This document shows positions 5,933-62,324 of a stretch of 64,000 nucleotides of DNA, piece after piece. This stretch comes from Acidobacteriota bacterium. Its GTDB lineage: Bacteria; Acidobacteriota; Vicinamibacteria; Vicinamibacterales; UBA2999. Made by a program: the position numbers and the translations under genes. The notes under the pieces were generated by a model. It did not search any database. It saw only the letters and a list, made by a program, of their open reading frames with translations, and was not told the DNA's origin. The DNA lies in the NCBI GenBank assembly GCA_030697165.1, contig JAUYQQ010000011.1, positions 186,001-250,000 on the forward strand. Direction: 5' to 3'. The first letter of the stretch is position 1. The number at the start of each line of letters is the position of its first letter.

Positions 5933-7105
5933 TCAGGCGGTGTCGCGGGTTTGGCGGTCGGCCTCGATGGCCCCGAGCCACTGCTCCAGGTCGGCGACGA
6001 CCGCCGCCTGGCGCCGCGCGGCCAACCGGACGCGGGCGGCTTGTTCCTCGGCGGCTTGCTGCGCCACGCGGTCCCGCGCGGCTTGCTCTTCGGCCGCGAA
6101 CCGCTCAGCTCGCTCCCGCGCGGCCTGCTGCGCTGCCCGTTCTTCAGCAGCCCGTGCTTCAGCAGCGCGCGCTTCCGCAGCGCGTTGCTCGGCAGCACGG
6201 CGTTCGGCTTCAGCGCGCTCTTCGGCAGCCATCCGCTCGGCGTGCTCGCGTTCGGCACGCTTCTCGGCCGCCATCCGCTCCTCGTGCTCCCGTTCGGCAC
6301 GCGCCTCGGCGGCGATCCGCTCAGTGTGCTCGCGTTCGGCCCGCGCCTCGGCGGCCACCCGCTCGGCGTGTTCGCGCTCGGCACGCGCTTCGGCGGCCAG
6401 CCGCTCAGCCCGCTCGCGCTCGGCGCGTTCCTCGGCGGCTCGCAGCTCGGCCCGCTCCCGCAGGTCGCGCTCGACATCCGCAAAGGCATCGGCCGGCTGC
6501 TGCTGCAAGTCAACCGCATCGATGGCACTAGCAGCGATCATCGGCGGCACCACCGGCGGCCCGCCTCCGCTCGCGCCGTAGCGGACTTCGTCCGCAGAGG
6601 CGGACGACGTTTCTCCCAGCTGCCTAAGCAGGGTGTCGAAGTCGAAGAGGTCTTCCACCTTCACAGGCGATGGCGGGGCCAGGACCGGCGCCGGGGCAAC
6701 CACCTGGGAGAGGCGTTCAACGGAGTCTTCGAGGTCCGGGTCGAACTGCGCCAGCTGGAGGGCGCGCTGATAGTGCGCCAGGGCTTGCGCCATGTCGCCG
6801 CGCTGTTGGTGGATTTCAGCCAGGCCACGGATGGCCGGCAAGTTGGTGGGCGCCGCCTGCACGACGGTGGTCAGCTCGACCGCGGCCTCGTCCAACCGCC
6901 CCACTTCGAGCAGGGCCCGGCCCAGCGTGACCCGCGCCGACAGGTAGCCCGGGTGATGCGCCAGGCCGGCGCGGCAGATGTCCACGGCCTCGGCAGCGTC
7001 GCCGGCCCGGCGACACTCCTCCGCCAGTTGCGCAAAAGTAATCGACGCCGGGTCCGCTTGGACCCGGCGTCGCAGTTCGAGGACCCGCGGGCTATCGGCA
7101 GCCAC
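5933..7105 (-). CDS. TPR protein with long Ala/Glu/Arg coiled coil
   Basis: Not assigned to a named family. Residues about 20-125 form TPR-like helices (AEAVDICRAGLAHHPGYLSARVTLGRALLE and onward). A Pro/Ala linker and an acidic patch (VEDLFDFDTLL, about 150-160) follow. Residues about 215-365 are an uninterrupted Ala/Glu/Arg-rich coiled coil containing five near-identical 14-residue units of the type AERLAAEARAEREH (about 233-302, DNA about 6200-6410). There is no signal peptide or membrane segment, so it is probably a cytosolic scaffold. It lies 9 nt after the PKD lipoprotein and appears to be the last gene of the pilus cluster. A role in pilus assembly is inferred from position only. Confidence 0.7.
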   Translation of the reverse strand: MAADSPRVLELRRRVQADPASITFAQLAEECRRAGDAAEAVDICRAGLAHHPGYLSARVTLGRALLEVGRLDEAAVELTTVVQAAPTNLPAIRGLAEIHQQRGDMAQALAHYQRALQLAQFDPDLEDSVERLSQVVAPAPVLAPPSPVKVEDLFDFDTLLRQLGETSSASADEVRYGASGGGPPVVPPMIAASAIDAVDLQQQPADAFADVERDLRERAELRAAEERAERERAERLAAEARAEREHAERVAAEARAEREHTERIAAEARAEREHEERMAAEKRAEREHAERMAAEERAEAERRAAEQRAAEARAAEARAAEERAAQQAARERAERFAAEEQAARDRVAQQAAEEQAARVRLAARRQAAVVADLEQWLGAIEADRQTRDTA

Positions 7106-14436: not shown

Positions 14437-14573
14437 AGATCAGGGTGCCTACAGTGCTTAAGGTGCCTAAGGTGCCTAGGTGCCTAAGGTGCCTGGGGTG
14501 CGAAGATTCGTGCAGGAAGGTCGAGGCACTCCAGGCCCCCTAGGCACCTGAGGCACTCTAGGCACCTTGTCTT
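14437..14573. repeat. 9-bp GGTGCCTAA-type repeat array with inverted arm
   Basis: Direct copies of a 9-bp unit (GTGCCTAAG and variants) from about 14441 to 14500, then a spacer, then the same unit inverted (AGGCACCTG, AGGCACTCT, AGGCACCTT) to about 14568. The two arms can pair into a long imperfect hairpin. The distal end of the inverted arm runs into the rplM -35 box. The same unit recurs at 17036, 39241 and 62234. Confidence 0.85.
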
Positions 14574-16427: not shown

Positions 16428-17033
16428 ATGGCAGCGACAGCAGCACAGGTCAAGGAACTGCGCGACAAGACCGGCGCGGGAATGATGGATTGCAAGGCGG
16501 CACTCGAGGAATCGGGCGGCGACGTCGACAAGGCCGTCGACATTCTGCGCAAGAAGGGCCTGGCCCAGGCGGCCAAGCGCGCCGGCCGCCTCGCCAAGGA
16601 CGGCGTGATTGGTCACTACATCCACATGGGCGGCAAGGTGGGCGTGCTCGTGGAAGTGAACTGCGAGACGGATTTCGTGGCCCGCACACCCGAGTTCCAG
16701 ACGCTGGCCAAGGAGATCGCCATGCACATCGCCGCGGCCAGCCCGCTGGTGGTGCGGCGCGAAGAGCTCGGCCCAGACGTCCTCGAGAAGGAACGCGAGA
16801 TTTACCGCGCCCAGTTCGCCAGTTCGGGCAAGCCGGCCAACGTCATCGAGAAGATCATCGAGGGCAAGCTCGACAGCTACTACTCGCAGGTGTGCCTGCT
16901 GGATCAGCCGTCGGTGCGCGACCCCAACGTCACGATCAATCAAATGGTGGCGGCCGCCACGGCCAAGACGGGCGAAAACGTCACTATCACGCGGTTCGTG
17001 CGCTTCAAGCTGGGCGAACTCGCACAGGAATAA
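16428..17033 (+). CDS. tsf: Translation elongation factor Ts
   Basis: Guanine-nucleotide exchange factor for EF-Tu. It has 201 residues, the short form like that of Thermus rather than the about 280-residue E. coli form. Seen: an N-terminal UBA-like domain (AAQVKELRDKTGAGMMDCKAALEESGGDVDKAVDILRKKG) containing the conserved TGAGMMDCKKAL-type motif, then IHMGGKVGVLVEVNCETDFVAR. GAGGAG precedes the ATG by 8-9 nt. The stop TAA abuts a 9-bp repeat array. Confidence 0.97.
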   Translation: MAATAAQVKELRDKTGAGMMDCKAALEESGGDVDKAVDILRKKGLAQAAKRAGRLAKDGVIGHYIHMGGKVGVLVEVNCETDFVARTPEFQTLAKEIAMHIAAASPLVVRREELGPDVLEKEREIYRAQFASSGKPANVIEKIIEGKLDSYYSQVCLLDQPSVRDPNVTINQMVAAATAKTGENVTITRFVRFKLGELAQE

Positions 17034-17035
17034 GG

Positions 17036-17121
17036 TGCCTAAGGGTGCCTAGAGTGCCTATGGTGCCTGGCGTGCGATCAGCACCTCAGGCACTTTAGGC
17101 ACCCTAGGCACTTTAGGCACC
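17036..17121. repeat. 9-bp repeat array forming a long hairpin upstream of pyrH
   Basis: Left arm of about 41 bp made of GGTGCCTAA-type 9-mers, a GATCA loop, and a right arm of the same 9-mers inverted. Read as reverse complement, the right arm matches the left at most positions, so RNA or a cruciform could form a nearly continuous stem. The right arm ends 4 nt before the pyrH -10 box. Confidence 0.9.
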
Positions 17122-17124
17122 AGC

Positions 17125-17130
17125 TATAAT
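17125..17130 (+). promoter_or_regulatory. -10 box of pyrH, leaderless arrangement
   Basis: TATAAT ending 6 nt before the GTG start of pyrH, so the predicted transcription start coincides with the start codon. No good -35 is present; that position lies in the repeat arm. Confidence 0.6.
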
Positions 17131-17136
17131 CGGTCT

Positions 17137-17868
17137 GTGTCCGCCCCGTCCTCTCCCCCTCCCCACTACAAACGCATCCTTTTGAAACTGTCTGGCGAAG
17201 CCCTCATGGGCGACCAGAACTACGGGATCGACCCGGCCGTGGCCACGCGCATCGCCCAGGACATTGCCGAGATCCAGGCGCTCGGGGTCCAGACGGCGGT
17301 GGTCATCGGCGGCGGCAACATCTTCCGCGGGCTGGCGGCCAGTGCGCGCGGCATGGACCGGTCGACCGGCGACTACATGGGCATGCTGGCCACCGTCATC
17401 AACGCCCTCGCGCTGCAGGATGCCCTCGAGCACAACGGGGTCGCCACGCGGGTGCTGACGGCCATCGAAATGCGCGCGGTCGCCGAGCCGTTCATCCGCC
17501 GCCGCGCTGTCCGCCACCTGGAAAAGGGCCGCGTCGTGGTGTTCGCGGCCGGGACCGGCAATCCCTACTTCACGACCGACACCGCCGCGGCGCTCAGGGC
17601 CATGGAGATGAAGGCCGAAGTCATCCTGAAGGGCACCAAGGTCGACGGCATCTACACCGCCGACCCGGTCAAGGACCCGTCAGCGACCCGCTACGACACC
17701 ATTTCGTACCTGCAGGTGCTGCAGGCACGCCTGCAGGTCATGGACGCCACCGCCATTTCCCTGTGCATGGACAACAAGCTGCCAATTCTCGTGTTCAACC
17801 TCAAGACGCCGGGCAACATCCGCCGGGTCGTGATGGGGGAAACCATCGGGACACTCGTGACGGCTTAA
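17137..17868 (+). CDS. pyrH: UMP kinase
   Basis: Phosphorylates UMP to UDP in pyrimidine synthesis; bacterial hexameric amino-acid-kinase fold, usually UTP-inhibited and GTP-activated. It has 243 residues. Seen: [44 protein letters not shown], and [18 protein letters not shown], all typical. The start is GTG 17137 ([16 protein letters not shown]), giving a short non-conserved extension; it lies exactly where the TATAAT at 17125 would start transcription. It belongs to the usual rpsB-tsf-pyrH-frr block. Confidence 0.97.
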
Positions 17869-17952
17869 CACGACGGTTCAATCACTAAGGTTCAATCACT
17901 ACGGTTCAATCACGACGGTTCAATCACTAGGGTTCAAGCACGCAGGTTCAGG
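17869..17952. repeat. Six tandem copies of a 14-bp unit between pyrH and frr
   Basis: Units of the form CAC-N-A-N-GGTTCAAT, with copies at 17869, 17883, 17897, 17911, 17925 and 17939. The first starts right after the pyrH stop. The last two diverge, and the final unit ends CAGG instead of CAAT, which creates the purine-rich ribosome site for frr. Confidence 0.92.
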
Positions 17953-18525: not shown

Positions 18526-19702
18526 CTACCTGACGCACCTGGAGTGCAGCAGCGGGTGCGGCGCGGGACCGTTCGATCCGCGGCAAGTCCATTTCCTCTG
18601 CCCCGCCTGCAACCTGCCCATGCTGGCGCGCTACGACCTCAAGGCGGCGCGCGCCTGGAAGAAAGAAACGCTGGCGGACCGCGCCCCGAACATGTGGCGG
18701 TATCGCGAACTGATGCCGCTGCTGGCCGCCGACTCCCCCGTCACGCTCGGCGAAGGCCTCACGCCGCTGCTGCACGCCCAGCGTCTCGGCCGCACGCTCG
18801 GCCTCGAACGACTGCTGATCAAGGACGAGTCGCTCAACCCCACTAATTCGTTCAAGGCCCGCGGCCTGTCGGCCGCCATCTCGCGCGCCAAGGCCCTGCA
18901 CGCCGAAACCGTGTTTCTGCCGACGGCGGGCAACGCCGGCAACGCGGCGGCAGCATACGCCGCAGCCGCGGGCATGAAGTGCGAGGTCTTCATTCCGCGG
19001 GATGCGAAGCAGCCATTCATTGACGAATGCCGCCTCTACGGCGCCAACGTGACGCTGGTCGATGGACTCATTACCGACGCGGGCAAGGTCGCCAACGACA
19101 CCGCCAAGCCGCTCGGCTGGTACGAAGTCGCGACGTTCCGCGAAGTGGGACGGGCCGAAGGCAAGAAGACCATGGGCTACGAACTGGCCGAGCAGCTGAA
19201 CTGGACGCTGCCTGACTGGATCATCTACCCAACCGGCGGCGGCACCGGCCTGGTCGGCATGTGGAAGGCCTTTGCGGAGATGGAGGCCATCGGTTGGCTG
19301 GCCGCCGGGCAGCGCCCGAAGATGGTGTCAGTGCAAACCGAGGGCTGTGCCCCGATTATCCGTGCCTTCGACAGCGGCGCCGAGACCGCCGGCACCTGGG
19401 AGAACGCGCATACCGTGGCCGACGGGCTGCGCGTGCCGCGCGCCGTTGCCGACTTCCTGATCCTGCGCACGCTCCGGGAAAGCGGCGGCGCGGCGGTGGC
19501 CGTGTCAGACGCGCAGATGGTCGAGGACATGAAGCTGATTGGCAGCCTCGAAGGCGTGTCGGCCGCGCCCGAAGGCGGCGCGGCCCTGAGCGCCATTCGC
19601 ACGCTCGTCGCGAGCGGCCGAATCAAGCCGCACGAAACGGTGGTGTTGTTCAACACCGGCGGCGCCCTCAAGTACATGGATGTCTTGCGTAGTAGCCAGT
19701 AG
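18515..19702 (+). CDS. thrC: Threonine synthase
   Basis: PLP enzyme that converts O-phosphohomoserine to threonine. It has 395 residues. An N-terminal zinc-ribbon-like segment has paired cysteines (LECSSGCG, FLCPACN). Next come the substrate-binding LGEGLTPLL, the PLP-Lys motif NPTNSFKARG, and the glycine loop PTGGGTGLVGMW. This matches the class with threonine synthases that carry an N-terminal Cys pair. The start is TTG 18515, overlapping the frr 3' end by 11 nt. The last three codons (SSQ) and the stop come from the 7-bp repeat array. Confidence 0.93.
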   Translation: MANSYLTHLECSSGCGAGPFDPRQVHFLCPACNLPMLARYDLKAARAWKKETLADRAPNMWRYRELMPLLAADSPVTLGEGLTPLLHAQRLGRTLGLERLLIKDESLNPTNSFKARGLSAAISRAKALHAETVFLPTAGNAGNAAAAYAAAAGMKCEVFIPRDAKQPFIDECRLYGANVTLVDGLITDAGKVANDTAKPLGWYEVATFREVGRAEGKKTMGYELAEQLNWTLPDWIIYPTGGGTGLVGMWKAFAEMEAIGWLAAGQRPKMVSVQTEGCAPIIRAFDSGAETAGTWENAHTVADGLRVPRAVADFLILRTLRESGGAAVAVSDAQMVEDMKLIGSLEGVSAAPEGGAALSAIRTLVASGRIKPHETVVLFNTGGALKYMDVLRSSQ

Positions 19703-19846
19703 CCAGTAGCCAGTAGCCAGTAGCCAGTAGCCAGTAGCCAGTAGCCAGTAGCCAGTAGCCGGTAGCCAGAAGAGCGCTTGTCTTTCTGGCCTCTGGCTAC
19801 TGGCATCTGGCTACTGGCATCTGGCTACTGGCATCTGGCTACTCAG
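19691..19846. repeat. 7-bp AGTAGCC array with inverted partner between convergent genes
   Basis: Ten exact copies of AGTAGCC from 19691 to 19760 plus one variant, a spacer of about 23 nt, then inverted copies (CTGGCTA alternating with CTGGCAT) to about 19846. The array spans from the thrC stop to the pfkA stop and can fold into a long hairpin, so it may act as a bidirectional transcription stop. Confidence 0.92.
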
Positions 19847-39240: not shown

Positions 39241-39294
39241 GGCACCCTTGGCACCCTTGGCACCCGAGGCACATTAGGCACCTTAGGCACCCTG
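39241..39294. repeat. 9-bp repeat array, single orientation, between rnhB and rplS
   Basis: Six units of the GGCACCTTA type on the plus strand (GGTGCC-x-x-x on the minus strand), with no inverted arm. It lies between the rplS stop and the rnhB start and is the same family as at 14441 and 17036. Confidence 0.88.
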
Positions 39295-39295
39295 G

Positions 39296-39643
39296 CTACG
39301 ACGTCTTTTTGACTTCCTTCATGCGGGCCGCCTTGCCCTTGAGGTCGCGCAGGAAGTACAGCTTCGCGCGGCGGACCTTGGCGGAGCGCAGCACTTCGAC
39401 CTTGGAGATGGTCGGCGAGTGCATCGGGAAGATACGCTCGACGCCCTGGCTGAACGACACCTTGCGGACGGTGAAGGTGGCCCGGTTGCCGCCCTTGCGG
39501 AGACCGATGACGACCCCCTCGAACACCTGGATGCGTTCCTTGTCGCCTTCCTTGACGCGCACGTGCACGCGCACCGTGTCGCCGGCCTTCATGCGGGGCC
39601 GCTCGACCAGTTGCGCCTTCTCTACCATCTCCATCGCAGTCAT
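39296..39643 (-). CDS. rplS: 50S ribosomal protein L19
   Basis: Large-subunit protein near the subunit interface. It has 115 residues from ATG 39643, which overlaps the trmD stop (TGATG). Seen: FMPGD-type [51 protein letters not shown], and [21 protein letters not shown]. An upstream ATG at 39667 would overlap trmD more, so the coupled start is preferred. Confidence 0.97.
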
Positions 39644-62233: not shown

Positions 62234-62278
62234 ACCTTAGGGTGCCTAGGGTGCCAAAGGTGCCAAAGGTGCCAAAGG
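62234..62278. repeat. 9-bp GGGTGCC array downstream of groEL
   Basis: Five units (GGGTGCCTA, then GGTGCCAAA repeated) just after the groEL stop, before the terminator. Same family as at 14441, 17036 and 39241; no inverted arm here. Confidence 0.88.
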
Positions 62279-62286
62279 GAAAGTCT

Positions 62287-62324
62287 AAAGGCCCGGGAGC
62301 TATTGCTTCCGGGCCTTTTCTTTT
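62287..62324. terminator. Bidirectional terminator between groEL and prfC
   Basis: AAAGGCCCGGGAGC, TATT loop, then GCTTCCGGGCCTTT and a T tract (CTTTTCTTTT). A run of A on the other arm lets it also serve the convergent prfC. Confidence 0.9.

Follow-up and report, generated by a model that had tools for sequence, protein, structure and literature searches.

A long, nearly perfect hairpin fills most of the gap between the genes tsf and pyrH in the stretch of 64,000 nucleotides analyzed here (hereafter the window), and raises the question of whether it is a device private to pyrH, a structure that affects how tsf transcripts end, or one copy of a dispersed element. Both genes are plus-strand ORFs with inferred names (tsf, 16428-17033; pyrH, 17137-17868, with a GTG start), and the gene order tsf-pyrH-frr-dxr, likewise named by inference, was recovered in relatives using the proteins of the window as queries. 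The left arm of the hairpin (17034-17075, plus strand) consists of four and a half tandem GGTGCCTAA-like 9-mers, the first of which lies immediately 3' of the tsf stop codon TAA (17031-17033). It is followed by a 5-nt loop, GATCA (17076-17080), and by a right arm (17081-17121) that carries the same 9-mer family on the opposite strand, with one stem mismatch per approximately 9 nt. The hairpin folded better than every shuffle, with an RNA folding energy of -69.9 kcal/mol for the plus strand (z -10.5), -68.5 for the minus strand (z -9.4), and -36 when folded as DNA (z -8.5). These results confirmed the two inverted arms facing each other over a 5-nt loop (42 and 41 nt) that a sequence-only reading had noticed, and shifted the start of the structure from 17036 to 17034. 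The right arm, which had been described as touching the -10 box, stops at 17121, 3 nt upstream of TATAAT (17125-17130, plus strand) and 15 nt upstream of the pyrH GTG.

The GTG begins 7 nt past this -10-like box, and a similar box precedes pyrH in 44 of 50 distinct tsf-pyrH gaps, which suggests that pyrH is probably leaderless. A sigma-70 scan found no -35 match upstream of TATAAT and called neither a promoter nor a terminator at 17034-17121. An Rfam scan of the window returned one tRNA only, and no curated RNA model matched the hairpin.

The repeat unit itself recurs in the window. Seven copies of the exact 9-mer GGTGCCTAA were present against 0.12 expected, distributed over three loci (14462/14479, 17034-17121, and 39274-39291). 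The first belongs to a second facing pair of this family, located between divergent genes (14444-14566, with arms at 14444-14501 and 14524-14566), and the last to a single minus-strand array (39241-39293) directly past the stop of a minus-strand gene that ends at 39296 and, judged by eye, looks like rplS. The sequence-only reading had counted a fourth locus; the plus-strand array there (62241-62278), 8 nt past the stop of a groEL-like ORF, proved to be built of the variant GGTGCCAAA, and a separate, ordinary T-tailed hairpin lies downstream of it (62287-62318). Other families occur in the window as well. The pyrH-frr gap is occupied by a plus-strand array of the 14-mer GGTTCAAGCACGAG (GGTTCAA family, 17869-17950), a family also found in this gap in the sister species G008, and one relative (L049) has a GGATTTGAG array there. 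Facing AGTAGCC arrays occupy the gap between two convergent genes (19691-19843) and provide the TAG stop of the left one. A tandem repeat of 42/84 bp was also observed within a coding region (6216-6461).

Beyond the window, we sampled 2.04 Mb of the 5.39-Mb genome of this uncultured bacterium (38%), read in stretches. Arrays were identified with Tandem Repeats Finder and genes were called with our own ORF and codon-usage script, so that gene calls are approximate and uncurated; family thresholds were set by us, tests on the same arrays are mutually dependent, and the assemblies are metagenomic. The sample contained at least 11 families of mainly intergenic tandem units of 7-18 nt, namely AGTAGCC, GGGAGTC, AGGGATC, AGATCAGG, AAAGTTG, GGTGCCTAA (GGTGCC), CACAGAGGA, GGTTCAAGCACGAG (GGTTCAA), GGGAGGGCACTTCTTGTC, GGACACGAA, and GGTGATTT, some of which may be related (e.g., AGGGATC and AGATCAGG). 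Intergenic sequence makes up only about 8% of the sample, yet arrays of period 7 were intergenic in 76 cases and genic in 17, and those of period 8 in 20 and 7 cases, respectively; periods 12 and 15 were genic, as protein repeats would give. Likewise, 80 of the 113 GGTGCC places were intergenic despite 92% of the sample being called coding. Genome-wide, the two-unit pattern GTGCCTNNGGTGCCT was found at 294 places and its reversed control at none. Inverted repeats scoring at least 14 were present in 127 of 801 gaps versus 0 of 150 shuffled gaps, and 146 of the 225 gaps with arrays had no detectable facing partner.

Facing arrays follow a fixed polarity. Among adjacent pairs of the same family, 36 were oriented (+,-), none (-,+), and one had both members on the same strand, where "+" is the purine- or G-rich strand of each family. 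Since these strands were named partly after seeing examples, the polarity within each family is solid and the rule that the purine-rich arm comes first across families is suggestive; in 92% of 79 array hairpins, purines made up over half of the left arm, and AGTAGCC has no clear bias. Placement was likewise non-random with respect to genes and strand: arrays were mainly intergenic, favored 3' ends, and kept to one strand, so that the random distribution named by the sequence-only reading as a refutation was not what we found. We counted 108 sense and 24 antisense arrays lying no more than 15 nt from a gene 3' end, as against 39 in total near 5' ends. Arrays in tandem gaps lay a median of 2 nt from the stop versus 29 nt from the next start (81 of 111 were nearer the stop), and density was lowest between divergent genes (depletion p 8e-7). 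Part of this 3'-end bias could stem from selection against damage to the promoter of the next gene. As a separate observation, 17 of the 25 sampled AGTAGCC loci cluster by gyrA, gyrB, dnaN, dnaA, and rnpA (G000 C8:350000-428000; L078-L080, L236, L237), probably around the replication origin. No other family clustered in this way, and the cluster could reflect local spread of a young family.

The families tested were largely confined to this species (G000). AGTAGCC was found at 107 places here versus 0-4 in genus-mates, GGGAGTC at 81 versus 0-5, and GGTTCAA at 43 versus 0-7; GGTGCC was more widely shared within the genus than the other tested families. Phylum-wide scans showed AGTAGCC to be rare beyond this genome and ACACAGAGG to be sparse and scattered. 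Among 129 orthologous gaps of G000 and G008, arrays were present in both species in 18 (same family in 5), in neither in 73, in G000 only in 22, and in G008 only in 16, differences that may be gains or losses on either side. Several counterparts in G008 were nearly empty (88 bp versus 0, 63 versus 0, and 145 versus 7). The centers of the palindromes differed among families. Of 16 aligned AGTAGCC loci, about 15, counted by eye and lying in both orientations, had the center CAGAAGAGCTCTTGTCTTTCTGG in common, which indicates that the palindrome was copied whole. Most GGTTCAAGCACGAG copies have GGTTCTNAGAACC-like centers. The loops of GGTGCCTAA copies differ among loci and have no common center, which would fit an old family or one formed in place. 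Of the marks of a MITE, no terminal repeats were found and no target-site duplication was identified; the occupied/empty pairs with G008 have diverged too far (about 82% protein identity) for a duplication to be visible.

The tsf-pyrH gap shows the same replacement among relatives. Close relatives recovered with PyrH were metagenome-assembled Acidobacteriota, several of them labelled Vicinamibacteria. The genus-mates G008, G001, and G002 carry the GGTGCC family in this gap with altered units; being common to four species, the family is not a recent arrival there. In two further genus-mates the arms are GGGGCTT-like (G003) and AAGGGTTAC-like (G004), and among remoter relatives the gap contains GGTTC, AGTC, or plain GC hairpins or is missing altogether. 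Taken with the number, placement, and turnover of the families, the hairpin before pyrH resembles rapidly changing, element-like DNA more than a switch dedicated to that gene. Two peculiarities of these assemblies were noted: in one metagenome bin (L103) the gap is apparently 1452 nt long, owing to an insertion or a misassembly, and five bins labelled Acidimicrobiia, Reyranella, or Bifidobacterium breve (L106, L114, L116, L121, L123) encode a PyrH 79-91% identical to the Acidobacteriota protein and are probably mislabelled.

We consider it fairly probable that the hairpin is a copy of dispersed, REP-like intergenic palindromes with tandem arms, which spread as DNA, sit at 3' ends, and are replaced within the genus. 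The sequences themselves show the anatomy, the multiplicity and polarity of the arrays, their bias toward 3' ends and restriction to the species, the empty or replaced orthologous sites, and the shared center in one family, whereas active spread, a machinery behind it, and any effect on transcripts are inferences. Copying at the DNA level fits best, because the arrays have no G.U preference and no T-tract and because copies lie on either strand and also in gaps between convergent genes. A palindrome with facing tandem arms would be copied, as a whole in at least one family, and copies would be retained mostly in gene 3' ends, where arrays would gain or lose whole units and families would give way to others. 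Transcription of the upstream gene would include a copy lying behind its stop codon. In the tsf-pyrH gap, such a copy would fold into a hairpin at the tsf mRNA 3' end, most likely shielding that end and hindering read-through into a separate, probably leaderless pyrH transcript. A bolder version, which we put forward tentatively, is that these palindromes could represent a new class of mobile DNA, with tandem arms, many independent families per genome, a single polarity (purine-rich first), one common mover targeting gene 3' ends, and families born and replaced within the genus.

Alternatively, the tsf-pyrH junction might need a hairpin, serving as a selected terminator or insulator that lineages build from any available repeat. 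We regard this as rather unlikely, even though 20 of the 50 gaps were strongly structured (z <= -3), with unrelated sequences directly upstream of the retained -10-like box, and the sense orientation and 3'-end bias of the arrays point the same way. In 17 of the 50 gaps, fewer than 30 nt lie ahead of the box, so that the site tolerates or attracts hairpins and requires none. Arrays also co-occurred at orthologous gaps of G000 and G008 above expectation despite their different families (odds ratio 3.7, p 0.002), a result that can also be read as gaps merely tolerant of insertions. Of 53 array hairpins located in tandem gaps, just 2 had a T-tract, defined as five or more T among the 8 nt that follow, and none lies behind 17034-17121; plain inverted repeats likewise had none, in a count made with no positive control set. 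The groEL array adjoins an ordinary T-tailed hairpin. The mismatched pairs of array hairpins between tandem genes comprised 50 G.U and 59 A.C, which leaves no trace of RNA-level selection, and a pair-change test limited to four species gave two two-sided pairs, not above shuffles. The proposal of the earlier reading that the hairpin ends tsf transcripts stands in part. An effect on the transcript end is plausible, given that the arrays are intergenic, located at 3' ends, and strand-locked, but the hairpin is one of many element-like arrays from many families, has no T-tract, belongs to a class with no G.U bias, and is missing from many relatives in which only a few bases separate tsf from pyrH. 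Our preferred guess at a function, though less likely than not, is that the hairpin acts at the 3' end of the tsf mRNA by limiting read-through into pyrH.

It is also unlikely that neutral slippage produced the arrays as local short tandem repeats, with inverted pairs arising by template switching. Units of 7-9 nt are the usual size among bacterial long simple repeats (PMC4679880), and the arrays have the defining property of such repeats, tandem units of 5-11 nt running longer than expected; their copy numbers differ among loci, as do the GGTGCC loops. Against local slippage stand the recurrence of one unit at numerous unrelated loci of a single species with its near absence in sisters, the single polarity in 36 of 37 pairs, and the common center at about 15 AGTAGCC loci.

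It appears improbable that the arrays are ordinary REP/REPIN elements mobilized by a Y1 (RAYT) transposase. The genome does encode six Y1_Tnp genes, and the arrays are high-copy, extragenic, palindromic, and often in inverted pairs, as REPs are. REPs are reported to form inverted dimers and to provide TAG stop codons through their GTAG ends (PMC3733652); AGTAGCC arrays do much the same, the neighboring stop being TAG in 19 of 25 cases and mostly inside the array. On the other hand, a REP unit is a stem-loop of about 20-40 nt with a GTAG/CGTC end, whereas the units here measure 7-18 nt, are not stem-loops themselves, form hairpins only between facing arrays, and contain GTAG in the AGTAGCC family only. 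Nor does any family flank a cognate RAYT gene: four of the six Y1_Tnp genes are flanked by other repeats, and no array family was found beside the six, save for one stray GGGAGTC array near the C2 gene. Small repeats were observed alongside the Y1 genes of L243, L244, L245, and G000:C2:47054, lying on either side of the gene in L243, L244, and C2; these are likely to be ordinary REP systems that share the genome with the arrays. Finally, a cruciform or supercoiling switch of pyrH, suggested by a long near-perfect palindrome stopping just short of TATAAT, is highly improbable, since the arm brings neither a -35 nor conserved sequence, the -10-like box is kept without this palindrome in most relatives, and the same anatomy occurs hundreds of bases away from promoters and between convergent genes.

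If dispersed palindromes are the correct reading, short intergenic tandem repeats would be copies of hairpin elements turning over in the genus at mRNA ends rather than slippage noise. It would then become possible to test which agent copies a 9-bp unit to dozens of sites, why facing arrays keep to a single polarity, and whether such elements stand in for terminators. The locus also cautions that a single striking hairpin does not amount to a gene-specific switch.

Our searches of the open-access literature found no account of such an anatomy in Acidobacteriota, and the known systems resemble it in part. Like intrinsic terminators, the arrays place a strong hairpin past a stop codon, but they have a far longer stem, no T-tract, and no G.U preference. 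With REP/BIME/REPIN elements (PMC3116915, PMC3733652) they share short, intergenic, palindromic, multicopy sequences that form inverted pairs at or over gene ends and provide TAG stops. A REP is nevertheless a stem-loop with a neighboring Y1 gene, while each arm described here is an array of 7-9-nt units without a stem of its own, in at least 11 families. The BOX elements of Streptococcus pneumoniae (PMC3049150) are likewise dispersed intergenic hairpins with a tandem module of variable copy number; in BOX, a repeated central module of approximately 45 bp is bounded by unique ends, whereas here the arms themselves are the tandem arrays. The TAACTGA heptamers of Beggiatoaceae (PMC4679880) are also intergenic direct arrays of 7-nt units, present at well over 100 places in one genome, with a scattered phylogeny and no known mover. 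Those heptamers, however, are direct repeats (with one indirect case) situated just before start codons, whereas the arrays reported here stand head-to-head past stop codons.
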